Source: Chloroflexota bacterium
GTDB taxonomy: Bacteria; Chloroflexota; Anaerolineae; UBA2200
Assembly (NCBI GenBank): GCA_014360905.1
Contig: JACIWW010000013.1
Coordinates: 1 to 64,000 of the forward strand
Direction: 5' to 3'
Length of the DNA stretch: 64,000 nucleotides
A program made the translations under genes and the position numbers. Positions 20,197-30,786 of this stretch are shown here, piece after piece (the stretch's first letter is position 1; each line of letters opens with the position of its first letter). The notes beneath the pieces were generated by a model. It was given only the letters and a program-made list of their open reading frames with translations. It ran no database searches and was not told where the DNA came from.

Positions 20197-20454
20197 ATGC
20201 CTTCCACGGTGTCTATTGAGATACCACGTGAAGTGATCCATGCCACCCGCATGACGCCGCAGGAGTTGAAGCGAGAACTAGCCGTGCATCTATTTCAACA
20301 GGGCAAGTTGTCCTTCGGCAAGGCCTGTGAAATGGCCGAAATGACCACTTGGGCGTTCCAACAGTTGCTTGGGAGCAGGGAAATCTCAGTTCACTATCAT
20401 CTCGAAGACTATGAAGCGGATTTGGCGGTATTGAAGGAGCTTGGTCGGCTGTGA
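20197..20454 (+). CDS. UPF0175 family antitoxin-like protein
   Basis: 85 aa. The UPF0175 pattern is clear: ELKRELAVHLFQQGKLSFGKACEMAEMTTWAFQQLL is a helix-turn-helix-like segment seen in this family, and VHYHLEDYEADL is the conserved tail. UPF0175 genes are usually found next to PIN-like DUF3368 genes and are thought to be DNA-binding antitoxins. The stop overlaps the next start (GTGA), showing translational coupling. Confidence 0.88.
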   Translation: MPSTVSIEIPREVIHATRMTPQELKRELAVHLFQQGKLSFGKACEMAEMTTWAFQQLLGSREISVHYHLEDYEADLAVLKELGRL

Positions 20455-20939
20455 CCGTCGTCAGCAATGCCTCCCCATTGATTAACCTGGCGCGGATTGG
20501 CCAATTGGACCTGATCCGTAATCTATACGATGAGCTCGTTATACCAGAAGCAGTCTGGCATGAAATTGTTGTTGCAGGAGCTGAGCAGCCCGGGGCAAAC
20601 GAGGTCAAAGCTGCTGCGTGGATTAAAACGCGAGCCGCCGTTAACAGACAACTTGTTCAGGCTCTGCAGCAGGAATTGGGCTCGGGAGAAGCCGAGGCTA
20701 TTGCTCTGGCATTGGAGATAGGATCCGAGTTGTTATTGATGGACGAGCATCTCGGTCGAGAAGTTGCACATCACCTCGGATTACGCTGCATGGGATTGAT
20801 TGGTGTGCTGATCGAAGCCAAACATAAGGGCTTCATAAGAGAGGTAAAGCCTCATTTAGATGCACTACGCGACGTAGCCGGCTTTCGTGTAAGCAGTGTG
20901 CTTTATACGCGAGTTTTACAAGACGAGCATGAGGAATGA
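20451..20939 (+). CDS. DUF3368 PIN-like nuclease (toxin partner)
   Basis: 162 aa from a GTG that overlaps the UPF0175 stop. VSNASPLINLARIGQLDLI carries the first acidic-site region, with DASP replaced by NASP as is common in DUF3368. The middle has SGEAEAIALALEIGSELLLMDEHLGREVA, containing the Glu and Asp ligands. The domain is predicted to cleave RNA. The pair is a type II toxin-antitoxin candidate; toxicity is not established for all members. Confidence 0.87.
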   Translation: MTVVSNASPLINLARIGQLDLIRNLYDELVIPEAVWHEIVVAGAEQPGANEVKAAAWIKTRAAVNRQLVQALQQELGSGEAEAIALALEIGSELLLMDEHLGREVAHHLGLRCMGLIGVLIEAKHKGFIREVKPHLDALRDVAGFRVSSVLYTRVLQDEHEE

Positions 20940-21829: not shown

Positions 21830-22927
21830 TTACAGCCACCAATAGCCTTGGATATCGAGATTGGTCAGCCCCAAATCTAGTGCCCTTTGGACAACTTTAC
21901 GATATTCTTCGATGGTTATGCGCCTGGATAACTCCGGATAATCGAACGCTTTATAAGATGGATTGTATTGCGCCATGATGTTAACATAGGTGTCTTTGGG
22001 CAGATTCTCTGCGATCCACTCCATGATTTTTTCCGAACCGCCGATGTCATTGGGCATAACCAAGTGCCGGATCATCAGCCCCCTTTGCATGATGCCCTCC
22101 TCCGTGGGTTTGGCCACGCCAACCTGGCGGTTCATCTCGAGGATTGCCTTCTTGGTAATCTCAGGATAACTCGCTGCCCCAGCAGAATACTTTGCCGACA
22201 TCTCACTATCCCAGTATTTGAAATCGGGCAGGTAAATATCCACGACGCCATCGAAAAACTTGAGCGTTTCAAGGAGTTCCCAGCCGCTGGTGTTGTGAAC
22301 AATGGGGAGCCGCAGCCCTCTGCCTGCAGCCACATCCAGCGCTTTGAGGATGTGGGGAGAATAATGCGTTGGGGTAACCAGGTTGATATTGTGACAACCA
22401 TTTGCCTGCAACTGCAGCATCATCTCGGCAAATTCATCAATGCTTGTTTCAGAGCCTCTGCCCATGTGACTGATCGGCCAGTTTTGGCAAAAGACACATC
22501 GCAAATTGCAGTGAGACAGGAAGATCGTCCCCGAACCGCCTCTGCCAACCAGTGGCCTTTCTTCACCATAGTGCGCATGATACCCCGAAATAATCAGCGC
22601 AGTGCCAGGAGCATGACAGAATCCGATCGCTCCCTTGAGACGATTTATCCCGCATCTTCTCGGACAGAGTTGGCACTGTTCCATTATCGCCCAGAGCTTT
22701 TCCGCCCGCTTTTTCAGTTCACCAGTTCGGTGCAGTTTCAGATACGCCGGTTCGAAACCAGCAGGAGTTTTACTAGGTTCTTGCACTGGGATCTGTGTCT
22801 CGTTGCTCGGGGGTTCCGTCTTCGCGCAGCCCAGGAGGAGCGAAGACAGCCCAACCTGGACACAGAATTTGGCAGCGTTGACTAGGAATTCTCTCCGCGT
22901 ATATCTTTTGAGAAGTAAACCGTCCAT
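21830..22927 (-). CDS. Tat-signal lipoprotein-like radical SAM enzyme (PflA/PflX type)
   Basis: 365 aa. The radical-SAM cluster motif is CNLRCVFC (Cys140, 144, 147), and a second cysteine group CQLCPRRC with a later Cys (85, 88, 92, 104) precedes it, as in PflX-like proteins. The rest follows the pyruvate-formate-lyase-activase family (GCHNINLVTPTHYSPHIL, YLPDFKYWD, QYNPSYKAFDYPELSRRI). The N-terminus is unusual: TRREFLV is a good twin-arginine motif, followed by a hydrophobic stretch and a lipobox (SLLLGC, Cys34), so the enzyme may be exported and lipid-anchored after cofactor insertion. The substrate is unknown. It is 15 bp downstream of a membrane spermidine-synthase-like gene, suggesting a shared pathway. 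Confidence 0.85.
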   Translation of the reverse strand: MDGLLLKRYTRREFLVNAAKFCVQVGLSSLLLGCAKTEPPSNETQIPVQEPSKTPAGFEPAYLKLHRTGELKKRAEKLWAIMEQCQLCPRRCGINRLKGAIGFCHAPGTALIISGYHAHYGEERPLVGRGGSGTIFLSHCNLRCVFCQNWPISHMGRGSETSIDEFAEMMLQLQANGCHNINLVTPTHYSPHILKALDVAAGRGLRLPIVHNTSGWELLETLKFFDGVVDIYLPDFKYWDSEMSAKYSAGAASYPEITKKAILEMNRQVGVAKPTEEGIMQRGLMIRHLVMPNDIGGSEKIMEWIAENLPKDTYVNIMAQYNPSYKAFDYPELSRRITIEEYRKVVQRALDLGLTNLDIQGYWWL

Positions 22928-22942
22928 CTCGTTTACCTCCCT

Positions 22943-25240
22943 TCAGACATTGATGGGGGGTCGTGCGCTGATGACAATGTAACTTGCCAGTTTGAGCAAC
23001 CCCACCGTGATACAGGTCCCCGTAACACCAAGAACAGGCAGAAGCACAACAGCCCCCGCCATTCCTCCCAACCATCCGCCCAGCAGGTCAGAAGCATAGA
23101 GCAACCCGGCGGTCCTGCTCAAATCTGCGTTGTTCCTCAGGTACAGCTTGTTCGCCAGAGGAAACTGGGAACCAATAAGGAATCCAGAGATGAATGAGAG
23201 GATCAAATACATTATTATACAGAGAAAAGTCAATGCGAACTGATTTCCCGTGAGTGCATTGGCAGCAGAAAAAGCAAGGGGTAATCCCAGTGAAAAACCG
23301 ATGATGGCCAGTTCAATTCCCAAGAAGAGTTTGAGATCATTCTGTACTCGTGCCAGCCCCGCTGTTAGGAGCGAGGCTCCGCAAGCCGCCCCTGCCATGA
23401 AGGATGCCGTAAGAAGCCCGATCCATGAAAACACATATCCATAGATGGATTGAAACGTGAATATCACGATAAGGTCAAATACCATTCCGGCAAAACCGGT
23501 TGTGACAATGGCGAAAGGGATGCCTGTCGGCAGGAATCTGGTGTTCCTCGTGCGCAGAAAGCGGTGGGTGAGCAGAAAAAGAACAAACAGAAGGAAAATC
23601 ATCTCCAAGTTGATCCGATCGAATTGTTTGAAAAGCCAACCAAATGCAGGCGCAAATAGGGCGTTCCAATAGGAGATGCTGTAGAATAGCCCCAGAGGCT
23701 GGAAATCGTAATTGATCTTCCGACTGCTCCCTTCGAGAAATTGCATGAACCAGTCTTGCCAACCGGGATGCAATTTGTTCTCGATATACCAGGGCACCAT
23801 CACATGTGCAGAGATGCCCCGCTCGGTCAACCTTCTGACCATGAGCGTCTTGTCCATAGCGAAAATCTGCGGGGAATCAGATGCCAGGAAGACGTTCCTG
23901 CCATCGCCCGGAATCACCCGTACGTGAACAAAGACGCTGCTCAGCGTATGGAAAATGCAGCTATTCAGGTTTTTCAGTTCCTCGTTCAAGAAAGTCAAAG
24001 AACCGGGTGCCCCGAGGACGAGGATGCCCCCTTTATTCAGCCGCTTTTGCACAAGGGAAAAGAACTCTTTGGTAAAGAGCCGGTTTACCTGTAAACTCGA
24101 AGGCTCCGTAATCCCTATGAAGATTAGATCGTATGTATGCGGCATTGTCCTAAGCAACAGACGCCCGTCCACGTAGTGTATCTTCACCCTTTCATCGTTC
24201 AGTTCGGATTCCGTCAGCGGTGTGGGGAATTTTCTTAGTAGGGAGAGAAGCAGCGGGTCAAGTTCCGCGTATTCGATCGCTTCGATTGAGGGGTGTTTCA
24301 ACGCCTCGTTGATTACTCCGCCCGCCCCACCGCTCACGATCAGCACTTTGGCCGGTGCGGGATGGGCGAGGAGCGGCAGGTGGACAAATTCTTCAACGGA
24401 TGGCATATCTGGAATAGGCGTTAGGAGAGTGGGCAGCCCATCCGAGAAGTAAATATACTGCCCCTGGTTTTCGACCACACAGATATTGCCGTATTGGGAG
24501 TTCTGGTAATGCACGACACGGAGGTTCTTCCATTGCGCTTGAATGGAACGCTGATGAAGTTTGTCCGCGTGGCTGGTGAACAACGCATATCCGGACAAGA
24601 TGACAAGCATGCTCAAGGTGACCAGCATCGTTTTTGGGAGCAGTCCGGTTTTCCAGTAGGGAGCAAGCAAAGCAAGGCATACGACCAAGTTCAGCATGGC
24701 GAGCCCAATGGCGGCCTGAAAAGCGTGAAAATGCGGGACGAGGAGATAGGTGCATGCGAACCCGCCGACGATGGTGCCCACGGTCTCGTAGACATAAACC
24801 CTGCCGGCAGAGGGTGCATCCTGCCCTGAGAAGATGGAATAGATCCGGCAACTGAAGGTAAACAATGCGCCGTGAAGCATGCTCACCGGCAAAAGGATGA
24901 GAAACGAGGAATAGAAGAGTGGCAACAATCCGACGCTCTCGCCAACGGAAATGCCAAGCATATTTCTTAGGATGCGTGTCAGGAAGACGGCTATGAGCAA
25001 AGAGAAGGAAAAGAGGATGCTAATCACGGCAAATATCTCGAGCCTGTTTTTGCATTTCTCGACCATCCTGCCGGGAAAGATGCATCCAAAAGCCTCGAGA
25101 ACAAGCCAGTTGCCGAGGATAATGCCGATGCCCAGTTCGTTGCCCGAGAAAACGATCAGGAGCTCCCTCAAAAGGAGCACCTCGGCAACCAATCCGCTAA
25201 ACCCCATCACGAATATAGCGATAGAAATACGTCTCTGCAT
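22943..25240 (-). CDS. Membrane protein with spermidine-synthase-like methyl/aminopropyl-transferase domain
   Basis: 765 aa. About seven N-terminal helices occupy residues 1-220 (start ISIAIFVMGFSGLVAEVLLL, the usual beginning of this family). A soluble SpeE-like Rossmann domain at about 270-470 contains VLIVSGGAGGVINEALKH, EYAELDP and the acidic YVDGRLLLR. A second membrane bundle spans about 550-765. Such fused proteins are widespread, but their substrates are unknown and true spermidine synthesis is not assured. Co-occurrence with the radical-SAM protein just downstream suggests joint modification of a membrane or envelope metabolite (inference). Confidence 0.82.
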   Translation of the reverse strand: MQRRISIAIFVMGFSGLVAEVLLLRELLIVFSGNELGIGIILGNWLVLEAFGCIFPGRMVEKCKNRLEIFAVISILFSFSLLIAVFLTRILRNMLGISVGESVGLLPLFYSSFLILLPVSMLHGALFTFSCRIYSIFSGQDAPSAGRVYVYETVGTIVGGFACTYLLVPHFHAFQAAIGLAMLNLVVCLALLAPYWKTGLLPKTMLVTLSMLVILSGYALFTSHADKLHQRSIQAQWKNLRVVHYQNSQYGNICVVENQGQYIYFSDGLPTLLTPIPDMPSVEEFVHLPLLAHPAPAKVLIVSGGAGGVINEALKHPSIEAIEYAELDPLLLSLLRKFPTPLTESELNDERVKIHYVDGRLLLRTMPHTYDLIFIGITEPSSLQVNRLFTKEFFSLVQKRLNKGGILVLGAPGSLTFLNEELKNLNSCIFHTLSSVFVHVRVIPGDGRNVFLASDSPQIFAMDKTLMVRRLTERGISAHVMVPWYIENKLHPGWQDWFMQFLEGSSRKINYDFQPLGLFYSISYWNALFAPAFGWLFKQFDRINLEMIFLLFVLFLLTHRFLRTRNTRFLPTGIPFAIVTTGFAGMVFDLIVIFTFQSIYGYVFSWIGLLTASFMAGAACGASLLTAGLARVQNDLKLFLGIELAIIGFSLGLPLAFSAANALTGNQFALTFLCIIMYLILSFISGFLIGSQFPLANKLYLRNNADLSRTAGLLYASDLLGGWLGGMAGAVVLLPVLGVTGTCITVGLLKLASYIVISARPPINV

Positions 25241-25381: not shown

Positions 25382-27937
25382 TCAGACACAAGATGCGAGC
25401 GCGTGCCGGTACAGTCCATCGAATGTGGTGGCTGTGGTTTCCTGAAAGATTCTCCAGGGTATCTTCACATAGTACCAGGGTTGTCCCGTGAGATCTGCTA
25501 CGTCGTGGCACCACTTGCGGGCGCGATCATCCTTGATGGGCACCTCGATGTCCTCTATGCCCTTCGTTTCCACTAGAAACATGTCACCGTCGGTGGTCCG
25601 GACAATAAAGTCTGGATAGTAGTATCTCATGCCACCTTGCGACGAAATGTACTCAATGAAAAAATGCATGGCTTCCACGTTCTTGGCGTATGCGGCCACA
25701 TCTTCGGCTCGATCCAGAAAAGCGGCAAACTCAGCTTCATAGTCCACGTCACAAGCCACCAGGTTAAAGACCGTTTTGAAACCAGGGTAGGTCTTGCGAC
25801 TCCAAGGGAAGGCCGGCGTTGAGGACACTTTCCGTGCCGGTTGAGCGATGCGCACGGTGACGGGCTCTATCGTGAGGCGATTGATGGCATCAACAAAAGC
25901 CTGGATGACGTACGTTCGCGCGTCAGGCTCACTGAGCCGCTTGATGACCGCAGGATCAGAGAGGTCAACAGGCTCACTGAAAAAGCGCTCGGTCAGGTAT
26001 CGTTCTACTAGAGGAGCTACCTCAGCGAAACGCCCTGCCTGTCGCAGATGGGCGTAGTGCAAGACGCGGTCTGTGAAGTAGGCGATGACGCTGTCCGGAC
26101 GGTCGGGGAAAGGTATCTTGAGATCCTGCTCCTCCAGCACTATCTTAGTCAACATATCGCGTCCGACATAATGTACTACCTCTTCTGGCATCCTGCCTTT
26201 CACAGGTTTGGGAAGCACCCTGGCTGGAAGCATTTCTATCGTCAGGTCCGAAAGCCGCGTGGCAGAGCGCGTGAGTGCAGGCGAAAGCTGCGGTATCTCC
26301 AGGTCGAACTGCAGTTTCGATTTATCTACCAGGATGGTAACTACGTCCTTGGTTACATCCTCAAGCCGCCGCCTCTCGATCTCCAGACCTTCCTCAGCCA
26401 ACTCCTTGTCCCAGAAGTCGCGAAATGCCTCATGCTCGATGACGATTACCTTCTCATCCCAGCCTGATCCCGCGCCTCCCATTAGCCGCAAGCCCCGTCC
26501 CAGCGTCTGTTCTGGTAGGATATTGGCCTTGGCCGTGTAGGGTCGCAGGGGAACGATGACGACCACATTCCTCACGTCCCAGCCCTCCCGCAGCATGAGC
26601 ACGGAGACGATGGCTCGGTAGGGATTGTCCTTGCTGTCCACCTCTCGCGCCGCCTTGCGCAGTCGTTCGATCAATTTCAGATTGGCCTTGGTCTCCAGTA
26701 TCTCACCTGTTCTGTTGGTGTGGATGTTCAATACTTTGCCGCCGAACAAGTGTGGGTATCGGGACTCCAGGTCTGCCGCTATATCATCAGCGGACTTGGT
26801 ATCCTCGGTCATGATGAACAGCACCGGCTTGTGGCCGCTTTTGTCAAGTTCATCCCAAAATTCTTTCCACTTTGCCACCCCCGCGTCAATTCGCTGACGC
26901 CACCGCACTGATGCCTTGGCACTGGGTATCTCTACATCGCCACCTATTTCCCCAAGTATGGGACGCTTTACAATCCCATCCTCAATCGCCTGCATGACTG
27001 GGTAGTCAACAACGATCTCGGGGAAGAGTCTTCCCTTCTGCGTTCGTGGCGTGGCGGTGAAATCCAACTGGGCAGTCAATGCGCTGCCAACCGCTTGTAA
27101 CCTCTCATGCATGGCGATGATGCGTTGATTCCACACCATATCGTCCACGTGCAGGTGGTGGCCTTCATCGTTCATGATCATCAGTTCGCCGTGGCTCACT
27201 ATGCGGTCTAGGAATTCCTCGCTGGTCAGGGTTTCCTTTTTGGGCTTTGGCCCCAGGAGTGCCTCGACCGGCGTATCAGGTGGCTCCTCGCCTCGCTCGT
27301 AGAGCCGCTGGACATTAGTCAGGTACAGTGTGCCTCGCGTGGTGGAGGGCGTGGGATCATCGCGCAGGATAACCGTCATTTGCCAATCGCTCATCCACTC
27401 TGGCGGTATCAGCGGGCCCTGGCGGAATATCTTGCCATCTTCAAAATCTCCCTTCAACCGCTCAAAGACGATGACGTTGGGAGCGATGATCAAGAAGGTC
27501 TTGGGCAGTCGCAAATGGGGTTCGAATAGGGCGTTGAAGTAGGACCACACCACTGCCAGGCTCATGACCCTGGTCTTTCCTGAACCGGTAGCCATCTTGA
27601 AAACGTAACGAGGGTAGCGATCGGTAGAGGGGTCATAGACCAGAGGCCGCCGCCCAAATTGCTGCATGAGGTCAATGAATCTATGAGCTTTGGCCACCTC
27701 GTAGAGGTAAATCAGGGTCTCGATGGCCTCACGTTGGCAGAAGTAGTAGCCAAACCATCTCTTGTTCACCTGATGGTCCTCGAAGAACCAGAAGGTGAGC
27801 AATCTGCGCGTGGTATCTGTAACCCCTGGGTAGCCTTGCTCCCGCCAGCCATCCACCGCCTCCCTAATCCTGGGCACGAACTCAGCCAGGCTTGGCCGCC
27901 GCTGTCTGGGTATGGAGTATGCTGGTAGCAATTTCAT
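25382..27937 (-). CDS. res: Type III restriction enzyme Res subunit (helicase-nuclease)
   Basis: 851 aa. It is a superfamily 2 translocase: Walker A MATGSGKTRV (about residue 115), Walker B/DEAH-like NDEGHHLHVDD, motif III FTATP, motif VI region ILPEQTLGRGLRLM. A C-terminal PD-(D/E)xK nuclease is YYPDFIVRTTDGDMFLVETKG at about 771-795. It needs Mod to recognise DNA and ATP to translocate. The ATG overlaps the mod stop by four bases (ATGA), so the two are translationally coupled. All key residues look intact. Confidence 0.92.
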   Translation of the reverse strand: MKLLPAYSIPRQRRPSLAEFVPRIREAVDGWREQGYPGVTDTTRRLLTFWFFEDHQVNKRWFGYYFCQREAIETLIYLYEVAKAHRFIDLMQQFGRRPLVYDPSTDRYPRYVFKMATGSGKTRVMSLAVVWSYFNALFEPHLRLPKTFLIIAPNVIVFERLKGDFEDGKIFRQGPLIPPEWMSDWQMTVILRDDPTPSTTRGTLYLTNVQRLYERGEEPPDTPVEALLGPKPKKETLTSEEFLDRIVSHGELMIMNDEGHHLHVDDMVWNQRIIAMHERLQAVGSALTAQLDFTATPRTQKGRLFPEIVVDYPVMQAIEDGIVKRPILGEIGGDVEIPSAKASVRWRQRIDAGVAKWKEFWDELDKSGHKPVLFIMTEDTKSADDIAADLESRYPHLFGGKVLNIHTNRTGEILETKANLKLIERLRKAAREVDSKDNPYRAIVSVLMLREGWDVRNVVVIVPLRPYTAKANILPEQTLGRGLRLMGGAGSGWDEKVIVIEHEAFRDFWDKELAEEGLEIERRRLEDVTKDVVTILVDKSKLQFDLEIPQLSPALTRSATRLSDLTIEMLPARVLPKPVKGRMPEEVVHYVGRDMLTKIVLEEQDLKIPFPDRPDSVIAYFTDRVLHYAHLRQAGRFAEVAPLVERYLTERFFSEPVDLSDPAVIKRLSEPDARTYVIQAFVDAINRLTIEPVTVRIAQPARKVSSTPAFPWSRKTYPGFKTVFNLVACDVDYEAEFAAFLDRAEDVAAYAKNVEAMHFFIEYISSQGGMRYYYPDFIVRTTDGDMFLVETKGIEDIEVPIKDDRARKWCHDVADLTGQPWYYVKIPWRIFQETTATTFDGLYRHALASCV

Positions 27938-30786
27938 CTCACATCCACCTGCAACAATTTCGTGGTGTCGTTGCCAAAGATGTCAATGACCTTCACCATC
28001 ACCTGGTATTTGCCTGGCCTGTCGTAGGTATGCCAGTCGCTCTCCAGGCGCAGGGCGGGGTGTTGGCGCGTCCGATAAGATTGCCATTGGTTATGGAAGG
28101 TGTCGCCTTGGTAGTCCCAATCCACCGCCCAGAAATCCACATAGTCTGACCAGCGCTTGATCTTCTCCCGCACCTCAGCGGGCACCAGATCCTCGTTGGG
28201 GATGATGAAATTCTTGAGCACCACTTGAACCTCGGAGCCCCTGCGCTCCAGGGCGACATCGAGATAGGCCAACTCGTAGAACTGGATGTCTCCCGCCTGC
28301 ACCGCTCTCGGATCCATGACCTCCCTGGGTATGGTGAGGAGGCGCAGGTCCACACCCCGCTTTCGCGCTTCTACTGTTACCAGGTCATGCAACCCCATCT
28401 CCCATTCCCACCCCAACACGTCCAGACCCCGGAACCTGTTGGCTGCGCACTCGTCCAGGGCGTCATTGATCTCTGAAAGCGTGACAGGCGCGTCCACCGC
28501 CCCCACGTGCACCATCCGCCCTGCCTTGCGTCCGTGAAGGTGTGCAAAACCTGTAACGCGCTCGCCGCGGTACAACTGCACGATGAAGTCCAGGTAGCGG
28601 GTCAAGACCTCGTCTTGTTTGACGCCTTGGCCGTTGACGTGCGCCTGCCAGTATTGGCGCTCATACTTGCCCAGGTTCAGGATTTCAAATGGCTTGCAGT
28701 CGGGGATGTCCAAAAGGCGCTTGCGTGTGACCTGAATGGCGAATCTCGAAAGGTCCGCCCCGATCCAGCGGCGGCCCAGTTTTTCAGCAACGGCGAGAGT
28801 AGTGCCGGAGCCGCAGTTGTGGATGGCACAGACTTCGGTCAGGAAAGAATGGGCTCCTTCGACTTCCAGATCGAAGACTTCTTCCTCTGTTTCTGCATGC
28901 TCAATGGCCGTAATTTCCACAGGCTGTAAATGGGGGCCAAAGAAGACAGTATCCCCTACCTTCAGCGTAGCTGCACGACGCCATTGACTGTAATGATCCT
29001 CCGATGGCATCGCTTCCTGGGTGGCTTCAAAGATGTGCTCTAAAACAGACTCGCGGCGGTGGAAGACATCGTCGTTGGTCACGCGCACAACGTTTAAGCC
29101 AAGGGCTTCGAGGTATGCCGTGCGCGTGGCGTCAGCTTCCTGGCCTTCCGGGGTGAAGTGGGAATCGCCATCCACCTCCACGACAAGGCCGGCTTCCCAG
29201 GAATAAAAGTCCGTCACGTAGGGGCCAATGGGATGCTGACGGCGAAACTTGACACCGAGTTGCTCGCCTCGCAGAGCCAGCCACAGCATGCGTTCCGCGG
29301 CGGTCATATCCTTGCGCAAGGCACGTGCGCGAGAAAAATGTCCATCTGGGATGTGTTTCCAAGTACGTTGGGCGCCATAGGATAGAGTGCGTTTTTGGCA
29401 CAGCACCCGATGGTCAGCGGTCACCCATAGGATTTGGGGGCTCAGGTTGTGCTTGATGCCGACCATTATGCCCTTGTGCCATTTGCGGATGGTGCGCAGC
29501 ACACGGTGAGGCTGGCCGTCATGGGCGATGACCCAGTCACCTGGTTTGAGGTCTTCGATGGGAATGGAGGAGAGCCCCTTCCCCACCCCACCCCTCCCCG
29601 ACATCGGGGAGGGGGTTAAAGCCGACGACATCGGGGAGGATGTAGAAACCTCCGAAACTGGGGAGGGAGTAGGCATCTCCGACATCGTGGAGGGTGCAGC
29701 CATCCCCCCGTCAACGGGGGGATTTTGGGGGGTCAACACCCGCGTCTCCTTCCGCACGCAGAAGAAGTCGGCTACAAGGTCGCCTTCATTGGAGGAGGCT
29801 TTGATGATGCGCTCCAAAAGGGCTTCGCTCTTTTCCGTTTCAAATCCTTGAGAAAAGGAGTAGGCAGGTAGATCAATCCAAAGTGTATCAACCAGTTCCT
29901 CTTCACTGGCTTCAACTAGGTATTCCGGTTTTCCTGTGCGGGGGTTCGGCCGAAGGCATCCTTCACGGATGGCTTGTTCTGCGCGTTCTTTGGTCCAACG
30001 CCAGTGGTTGCCTGGATTCGGTTTAAACCCAAATAGCTCATAATCCATTCCAGTCCTAACGCCAGCAGCCTCAAATGAATGCCACCGCTCAGGTCGCTTA
30101 GCCCCGACCATGGGAGGAAGAAGGGAATGTGCCTCGGTTTTCGAGTAGAAATATAAGACATCATGGCCGTAATTCAGGCTCTTGACTCGCTCTCGTTCTC
30201 GAACGTTTTTCCTAATACGCTTGACAACAATCTCGTTACGAAAATTATGATATCCGAATATCTCATCTAAAATAGCTTTCACGTAATGCCCAACATGCCA
30301 TCCAAGATGCACCCAAATACTCCCATCCTCTGCCAACAACTCCCGCATCAGCACCAGCCGGTCATACATCATTTGCAGGTACGAATCCAGCCCCTTGCCC
30401 CAGGTGTCTCGGTAGGCTTTCTCCTCTATCACGGACGCCTCTTTGGTCCACTCTTCATCCCCTACCCTGATATTGACGCTGAAATCCGCGCCGGTGGCAA
30501 AGGGCGGGTCAATGTAGATGAGGTTGATCTTGCCGGTAAAGCCCTGGTCAAGCAGCGAGGCCATGATGTACTTGTTGTCGCCCCAGATGAGTTTGTTGCG
30601 CCAGCCCTCGGCTTCGTCGCCCTGGATAGCCGCGAAAAGCGGCGCCTCTTCCCGCGTGGCGCGGGAGACATTGACCGTCTCTACCACCTGGAACGGCAGG
30701 GCAATGCGCTCCACCTCCGTGCGCTTGCCCGGCCAGTAGAGCCCGGTTCGCATCACCTCATTTTCGACTCCCTTGGTATTGGTCAT
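27934..30786 (-). CDS. mod: Type III restriction-modification methyltransferase Mod, interrupted by an intein
   Basis: 950 aa precursor. The N-extein (1-342) holds the catalytic DPPF (93-96) in a beta-class order, with target recognition following. The protein is then interrupted in the SAM-binding motif: VADFF is followed by the intein (343-657), and CGSGTTLAVAEKLGRRWIGAD resumes at 658. Splicing would restore DFFCGSGTT and give a mature 635-aa Mod that adds N6-methyl to adenine (usual for type III). Without splicing the enzyme cannot bind SAM. mod is first in an operon with res. Confidence 0.93.
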   Translation of the reverse strand: MTNTKGVENEVMRTGLYWPGKRTEVERIALPFQVVETVNVSRATREEAPLFAAIQGDEAEGWRNKLIWGDNKYIMASLLDQGFTGKINLIYIDPPFATGADFSVNIRVGDEEWTKEASVIEEKAYRDTWGKGLDSYLQMMYDRLVLMRELLAEDGSIWVHLGWHVGHYVKAILDEIFGYHNFRNEIVVKRIRKNVRERERVKSLNYGHDVLYFYSKTEAHSLLPPMVGAKRPERWHSFEAAGVRTGMDYELFGFKPNPGNHWRWTKERAEQAIREGCLRPNPRTGKPEYLVEASEEELVDTLWIDLPAYSFSQGFETEKSEALLERIIKASSNEGDLVADFFCVRKETRVLTPQNPPVDGGMAAPSTMSEMPTPSPVSEVSTSSPMSSALTPSPMSGRGGVGKGLSSIPIEDLKPGDWVIAHDGQPHRVLRTIRKWHKGIMVGIKHNLSPQILWVTADHRVLCQKRTLSYGAQRTWKHIPDGHFSRARALRKDMTAAERMLWLALRGEQLGVKFRRQHPIGPYVTDFYSWEAGLVVEVDGDSHFTPEGQEADATRTAYLEALGLNVVRVTNDDVFHRRESVLEHIFEATQEAMPSEDHYSQWRRAATLKVGDTVFFGPHLQPVEITAIEHAETEEEVFDLEVEGAHSFLTEVCAIHNCGSGTTLAVAEKLGRRWIGADLSRFAIQVTRKRLLDIPDCKPFEILNLGKYERQYWQAHVNGQGVKQDEVLTRYLDFIVQLYRGERVTGFAHLHGRKAGRMVHVGAVDAPVTLSEINDALDECAANRFRGLDVLGWEWEMGLHDLVTVEARKRGVDLRLLTIPREVMDPRAVQAGDIQFYELAYLDVALERRGSEVQVVLKNFIIPNEDLVPAEVREKIKRWSDYVDFWAVDWDYQGDTFHNQWQSYRTRQHPALRLESDWHTYDRPGKYQVMVKVIDIFGNDTTKLLQVDVR
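28816..29760 (-). mobile_element. Intein with DUF559-like endonuclease, inserted in Mod
   Basis: 315 aa. Splice residues are canonical class 1: Cys at position 1 (residue 343), terminal HN (656-657), then Cys+1 (658). Block A is CVRKETRVLT, the block B Thr-x-x-His is TADH (456-459), and block F is VEGAHSFLTEVCAIHN. Between the splicing blocks, residues about 484-588 resemble DUF559 (ARALRKDMTAAERMLWLAL, FRRQHPIGPYVTDFY, VVEVDGDSHF, GLNVVRVTNDDV), a PD-(D/E)xK/Vsr-related nuclease, in place of LAGLIDADG. Residues 353-405 are low-complexity Ser/Pro/Met and are encoded by inserted palindromic repeats. The insertion point is the invariant SAM motif, a typical choice for inteins. Confidence 0.93.
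29575..29735. repeat. Palindromic repeat DNA inside the intein coding sequence
   Basis: Modules include CTCCCCGACATCGGGGAG (29594-29611), then related GACATCGGGGAGG, GAAACTGGGGAGGG and GACATCGTGGAGGG units spaced about 27-45 bp apart, and CCCCCGTCAACGGGGG (29705-29720). On the minus strand they translate without stops into SPMSG/TPSP-type residues. This DNA looks like the intergenic repeat families of the genome and interrupts an otherwise normal intein between blocks A and B. Confidence 0.85.

Follow-up and report, generated by a model that had tools for sequence, protein, structure and literature searches.

A two-gene unit occupies positions 21,830–25,240 of a 64,000-nucleotide stretch (hereafter the window) of contig JACIWW010000013.1 from a Chloroflexota bacterium (Anaerolineae, UBA2200; assembly GCA_014360905.1). 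On the minus strand, a gene for a spermidine-synthase-like membrane protein (SP) is followed after a 15-nt gap, in the same orientation, by a gene for a radical S-adenosylmethionine (SAM) protein (RS). RS matches PF04055 at 40.3 bits (cut-off 29.5), and SP matches PF01564 at 93 bits (cut-off 22.9) and NF037959, the fused MFS/spermidine synthase family, at 70 bits (cut-off 40). A sequence-only reading of this DNA had proposed that RS is an exported lipoprotein and that SP could feed it or pass it substrates. Here, we ask whether RS acts outside the cytoplasm and what SP contributes; coordinates are collected in Table 1.

RS belongs to the radical SAM superfamily by its CxxxCxxC motif, its fold and its Pfam score. 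Seven cysteines (C85, C88, C92, C104, C140, C144 and C147) are identical in 82 homologues, and non-cysteine residues such as E122, P186, D235 and K237 are invariant across 72 aligned sequences that include cytoplasmic homologues and AmmeMemo-type proteins. Positions conserved within the exported clade are mostly common to the cytoplasmic homologues. A sequence search of RS against Protein Data Bank (PDB) chains found nothing meaningful, and the closest solved fold to its AlphaFold2 (AF2) model is pyruvate formate-lyase (PFL) activating enzyme (PDB 3c8f; E = 2.9e-9, TM-score 0.70 by target). The two proteins share this fold and the CxxxCxxC motif but only 12% identity; RS has an additional N-terminal four-cysteine motif and an export signal, no glycyl-radical enzyme is encoded nearby, and RS scores 16.9 bits against a cut-off of 231.75 for the PFL-activating enzyme equivalog. 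The AmmeMemoRadiSam radical SAM enzyme (TIGR04337) likewise has an N-terminal CxxCxxxC...C motif followed by CxxxCxxC, but RS reaches only 34.7 bits against its cut-off of 220, lacks the C-terminal CxxC tail of AmmeMemo-type proteins, and has no adjacent Memo or AMMECR1 gene. Elsewhere in the same genome are two paralogues at 49% identity (C26 and C6; L092 and L093) with the same two cysteine motifs, which we take to belong to the COG1313/PflX group; unlike RS they have no signal and no SP neighbour, and they fall outside the export clade at a support of 100/98. The genome also encodes two AmmeMemo-type proteins with signals for twin-arginine translocation (Tat) and a lipobox (C2, C24), and two without signals (C18).

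In the N-terminus of RS, MDGLLLKRYTRREFLVNAAKFCVQVGLSSLLLGC, a Tat motif leads into a hydrophobic helix, followed by a lipobox cysteine; the TRREFLV motif and cysteine named in the sequence-only reading are indeed there, at residues 10–16 and within LLGC at residues 31–34. By this motif RS is a putative lipoprotein. A GGGAGG sequence 7–8 nt upstream of the ATG provides a strong ribosome-binding site. Use of a later start, which would remove the signal, had been named as an outcome that would undo the reading; we rejected it, as GTG48 is the sole other in-frame ATG, GTG or TTG within the first 70 codons and has no ribosome-binding site. In the AF2 model, a helix (residues 11–33) and a disordered stretch (approximately 36–53) precede a compact fold that begins near residue 57 with a predicted local distance difference test (pLDDT) score above 90, a modelled layout that resembles an exported, tethered protein.

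Export signals recur in the wider family. We took the best 80 of 221 loci from a genome scan for RS homologues (49–77% identity), picking starts by ribosome-binding site and overlap and calling export signals by motif and hydropathy. Their hosts span about a dozen phyla, named here from the titles of metagenome-assembled genomes (MAGs): Chloroflexi, Desulfobacterota, Zixibacteria, WOR-3, Omnitrophota, Spirochaetes, Cloacimonadota, Bacteroidota, Aminicenantes and others. An N-terminal export signal is found in all 45 SP-adjacent RS proteins (42 beside a full-length SP, 2 beside a truncated SP, and that of the window). The signals are Tat-like in 36 and Sec-type in the other 9, indicating that the motif is not there by chance; in one of the nine, L036, the program picked a later start, and we assigned by hand the start that includes the signal. 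The lipobox is common among the Chloroflexi homologues and not universal, many others having signal-peptidase-I-like signals.

The choice of signal tracks the export machinery of the host. Among 50 genomes searched for TatC, it was missing from 8 of 11 with a Sec-type RS, 2 of 34 with a Tat-type RS and none of 5 with a signal-less or unclear RS (Sec-type versus Tat-type, Fisher p = 3e-5), counts in which related rows are not independent and MAGs may be incomplete. The window's own genome encodes TatC (216 bits). Phylogenetically, exported RS proteins form a clade apart from the cytoplasmic homologues (support 100/98), within which Sec-type signals require at least four changes, and two Omnitrophota members inside the SP clade (L040 and L053) have lost both the signal and the SP neighbour. 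Because Sec-type signals replace Tat signals where the genome usually has no TatC, export looks selected, and such a swap of routes is difficult to account for if it is of no consequence that RS lies outside. From these patterns we consider RS very likely to be exported.

SP consists of seven transmembrane (TM) helices, a Rossmann domain and seven further TM helices, the last two forming one long kinked helix in the AF2 model, so that the domain sits between two membrane bundles as anticipated from the sequence. Profile comparison (hhalign, E = 1.3e-10, 190 columns) reveals that residues 2–199 and 571–765 are homologous 6-TM units, leaving TM7 and TM8 as an extra hairpin that bears the Rossmann domain. 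Averaged over orthologues, the first 15 residues and the loops assigned inside carry roughly 2–3.5 Lys/Arg each, and those assigned outside roughly 0–1, with one exception (2.2) near R89. The duplication, the hairpin and this charge bias together place the Rossmann domain on the outside, a topology we regard as likely. The transferase domain of SP is thus predicted on the outer rather than the cytoplasmic side, where it would share a compartment with RS. NF037959 spans 480 positions, in contrast to the 765 residues of SP with its duplicated 6-TM unit after the Rossmann domain.

Conserved residues indicate what this domain may bind. Compared with spermidine synthase SpeE (PDB 1uir and 1iy9), the Rossmann domain has 23–26% identity, TM-scores of about 0.7 by target, and the same ribose- and adenine-side acids: E326 is retained in 63 of 64 SP proteins and the aspartate of the Asp-Gly pair, D358, in all 64. 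Neither of the aspartates needed for aminopropyl transfer occurs in any of the 64; that of the GGxDG motif, which contacts the amine of decarboxylated SAM (dcSAM), is mostly A, V, F, L or I, and the catalytic position of DSTDP is Gly in 48. SpeE also lacks the 14 TM helices. Spermidine synthase was therefore rejected as the identity of SP, which with high confidence is not an aminopropyltransferase and very probably has a SAM-family nucleoside as its ligand. The description of SP as spermidine-synthase-like accordingly holds for its fold only.

A full-length SP lies directly upstream of RS on the same strand in 42 of the 80 loci, and a truncated SP in 2 more, so the pair does stay together across phyla. 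In these two (L004 and L008) just C-terminal remnants of SP precede an intact exported RS, revealing that RS can outlive SP. Distances among RS proteins correlate with those among SP proteins (r = 0.53; 0 of 2000 permutations) in a test that makes no correction for the relatedness of the species. Among 151 Chloroflexota genomes, a close RS and a close SP both occur only in that of the window, which fits joint transfer. Taken together, these observations make SP in all probability the functional partner of RS, though slightly less surely than RS is exported. One Anaerolineae MAG has two separate RS–SP pairs (L013 and L061). All-against-all clustering of the flanks of close RS homologues found no further gene that is conserved besides SP. 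Where a third gene does occur, it is usually another exported radical-SAM enzyme, which answers a question raised in the sequence-only reading. Overall, the export, pairing and conservation that it envisaged are strongly supported; the predicted outer side of the transferase domain and the loss of the aminopropyl-transfer residues modify that reading.

SP also accompanies a second radical-SAM family. TIGR04337-type members in the same and related genomes, some with export signals, lie beside an SP paralogue: in the window's genome, a second SP (39% identical) is tail to tail with a Tat-lipobox AmmeMemo-type RS, and this pair is adjoined by a Tat-lipobox SagB-type nitroreductase. Proteins similar to the nitroreductase, with N-terminal signal-like stretches, also lie beside radical-SAM genes at L070 and L103. 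Pairing of SP with AmmeMemo-type RS recurs in Psychracetigena, Bacteroidota, Aminicenantes, Chloroflexi, WOR-3 and others, and signals are present in 17/17 AmmeMemo-type proteins adjacent to SP versus 11/24 without SP nearby, many of the 24 seen with just 1.5 kb of flank. On the evidence of these neighbourhoods, SP is independently re-paired with the second family, and at two loci (L077 and L024) SP and one RS from each of the families all lie within 6 kb. Memo-AMMECR1 fusion proteins with N-terminal signals of their own adjoin SP in Bacteroidota (L155, L142) and Acidobacteria (L147), joined at L155 and L147 by an exported radical-SAM gene, and this grouping is apparently an exported AmmeMemoRadiSam system.

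Some of the related loci contain electron-transfer genes. NapH-like polyferredoxin and double-cubane reductase genes lie alongside at L156 and L045, together with an acyl-CoA dehydratase activase ATPase gene (by profile at L156, by sequence reading at L045), and at L152 a NapH/NapG-like polyferredoxin lies between exported RS genes. These neighbours are candidates for carrying low-potential electrons outside.

We propose, at slightly better than even confidence, that RS and SP form an extracytoplasmic radical-SAM module in which SP handles SAM or its products. RS would fold and receive its two [4Fe-4S] clusters in the cytoplasm and cross the membrane through Tat; its lipid and flexible linker would then hold it to the outer face beside SP. 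The Rossmann domain of SP would hold SAM (or 5'-methylthioadenosine, 5'-deoxyadenosine or S-adenosylhomocysteine) at that face, and its duplicated 12-TM core would move SAM out or spent products back. Electrons would reach RS through the membrane, perhaps by way of NapH-like polyferredoxin and ATP-driven double-cubane reductase in clusters that have them. RS would use radical chemistry to modify a secreted protein, an envelope protein or some other molecule at the surface, a protein of this kind being our guess for its substrate. That radical-SAM catalysis occurs outside the cytoplasm we hold to be reasonably likely; that SP supplies or removes SAM or its products is a tentative suggestion at less than even odds, and the earlier idea that it feeds or passes substrates to RS is possible. 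Doubtful, though worth stating, is the most complete form of the proposal, with the entire radical-SAM chemistry outside the membrane, the 12-TM core delivering SAM and removing products, the outward Rossmann domain serving exported RS of two families, and some lineages sending ATP-driven low-potential electrons through a membrane polyferredoxin.

Several points weigh against this proposal. We know of no bacterium with SAM or a low-potential reductant outside its cytoplasm. A Sec-type RS, exported unfolded, would need its clusters assembled outside, the chief difficulty for the proposal. TatC is present in three of the Sec-type genomes, and none was seen in two Tat-type genomes, whose assemblies may be incomplete. 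Several genomes with an exported RS have no SP, and few loci, that of the window not among them, have the electron-transfer neighbours. Finally, SP has a 6+6 duplication, and no transporter structure, MFS or other, appears among the top PDB matches listed for it, all 50 of which cover the Rossmann domain.

The strongest competitor, although unlikely, makes SP an outward-facing SAM-dependent methyltransferase that does not supply RS, with RS adding another modification to the same exported substrate. Its model is the fungal seven-TM histidine methyltransferase NHMT, in which 7 TM helices precede a spermidine-synthase-like domain without the dcSAM acid and which resides in the endoplasmic reticulum and methylates secreted proteins (PMC10349129). 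By analogy, NHMT is a precedent for such a domain acting outside the cytoplasm, and SP shows the same loss of the acidic residue of GxG(D/E)G. The likeness is one of layout and lost acid. NHMT has neither the second, duplicated 6-TM unit of SP nor a radical-SAM partner, and SP goes with radical-SAM genes of two families, not with any shared candidate substrate gene.

The remaining explanations deny RS a catalytic role outside. It might work in the cytoplasm before export or at the inner face, with the Tat signal just placing the finished enzyme or product complex at the membrane, as SAM and flavodoxin or ferredoxin are cytoplasmic and Tat substrates fold before export; this is improbable, since a Sec substrate would not act before export and Sec-type signals substitute for Tat in genomes without TatC, and since the same genome has signal-less paralogues for cytoplasmic work. 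Somewhat less probable still is an exported RS that has ceased to be an enzyme and has become an iron-sulfur electron carrier, or a protein that binds metal, outside the cytoplasm. Both cluster motifs are kept, and polyferredoxins are neighbours at some related loci, but against such a role stand the invariant non-cysteine residues and the conserved positions that the exported clade mostly has in common with cytoplasmic homologues. Least probable is an RS kept in the cytoplasm by a later start: GTG48 does lie just ahead of the folded domain, but its ribosome-binding site is missing where that of ATG1 is strong, and homologues in other phyla conserve the signal at the protein level.

Radical-SAM enzymes are regarded as cytoplasmic owing to their need for SAM and a strong reductant. 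The domains of RS and SP are already known; in the open-access literature searched, we found no description of an exported radical-SAM enzyme or of one with a conserved outward-facing SAM-fold partner. In one source (PMC10924467) a radical-SAM gene is named just among the neighbours that a gene list gives. A widespread exported RS, maintained by selection and paired with a fixed partner in the membrane, would give radical-SAM chemistry a new compartment. It would pose the problem of how bacteria pass SAM and electrons through a membrane and would offer a way into what Memo-AMMECR1 homologues do, some of them being exported alongside. It also suggests that one group of "spermidine synthase" annotations stands for outward-facing SAM-binding membrane proteins.

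Table 1. Features of the RS–SP locus in the window, followed by features at related loci (prefixed by locus)
Feature	Position	Strand	Basis or remark
RS, exported radical-SAM protein, 365 aa	21830..22927	(-)	PF04055 above cut-off; AF2 mean pLDDT 91; best PDB match pyruvate formate-lyase activating enzyme
Ribosome-binding site GGGAGG of RS	22936..22941	(-)	
RS Tat motif TRREFLV, residues 10-16	22880..22900	(-)	motif
RS lipobox LLGC, residues 31-34	22826..22837	(-)	motif only
RS disordered linker, residues 35-56	22760..22825	(-)	AF2 pLDDT <50 at 36-38 and 40-53
RS auxiliary cluster motif C85-C88-C92-C104	22616..22675	(-)	invariant, 82 homologues
RS radical-SAM motif C140-x3-C144-x2-C147	22487..22510	(-)	invariant, 82 homologues
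SP, 14-TM spermidine-synthase-like partner, 765 aa	22943..25240	(-)	PF01564 93 bits; NF037959 70 bits; AF2 pLDDT 88
SP 6-TM unit A, residues 2-195	24656..25237	(-)	AF2 model and profile comparison
SP TM7, residues 200-221, leads outward	24578..24643	(-)	
SP Rossmann domain, ~residues 241-510	23711..24520	(-)	predicted extracytoplasmic
SP E326, counterpart of ribose-binding acid	24263..24265	(-)	kept 63/64
SP D358-G359, counterpart of adenine-side DG	24164..24169	(-)	D kept 64/64
SP G376 at catalytic-Asp position	24113..24115	(-)	no Asp in 64 SP proteins
SP TM8, residues 545-565, leads back inward	23546..23608	(-)	
SP 6-TM unit B, residues 567-758, homologous to unit A	22967..23542	(-)	hhalign E=1.3e-10, 190 columns
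Tat-lipobox SagB-type nitroreductase	L091:4407-5213	(-)	adjoins second RS/SP pair of the window's genome
Signal-bearing Memo-AMMECR1 fusion	L155:8211-9719	(-)	
Signal-bearing Memo-AMMECR1 fusion	L142:2240-3592	(-)	
Signal-bearing Memo-AMMECR1 fusion	L147:1167-2852	(+)	
NapH-like polyferredoxin region near exported radical-SAM genes	L156:7760-13651		
NapH-like polyferredoxin region near exported radical-SAM genes	L045:4530-11827		
NapH-like polyferredoxin region near exported radical-SAM genes	L152:4225-5571		

Other genes in the window are of separate interest. At 27934-30786(-), a DNA methyltransferase reading frame (PF01555) contains an apparent intein (weak PF14890), which bears a DUF559 nuclease domain and interrupts the frame at DFF/CGSGTT. 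A ResIII-type restriction subunit adjoins this frame at 25382-27937. At 20197-20939(+), a UPF0175 and DUF3368 gene pair has the layout of a toxin-antitoxin module.

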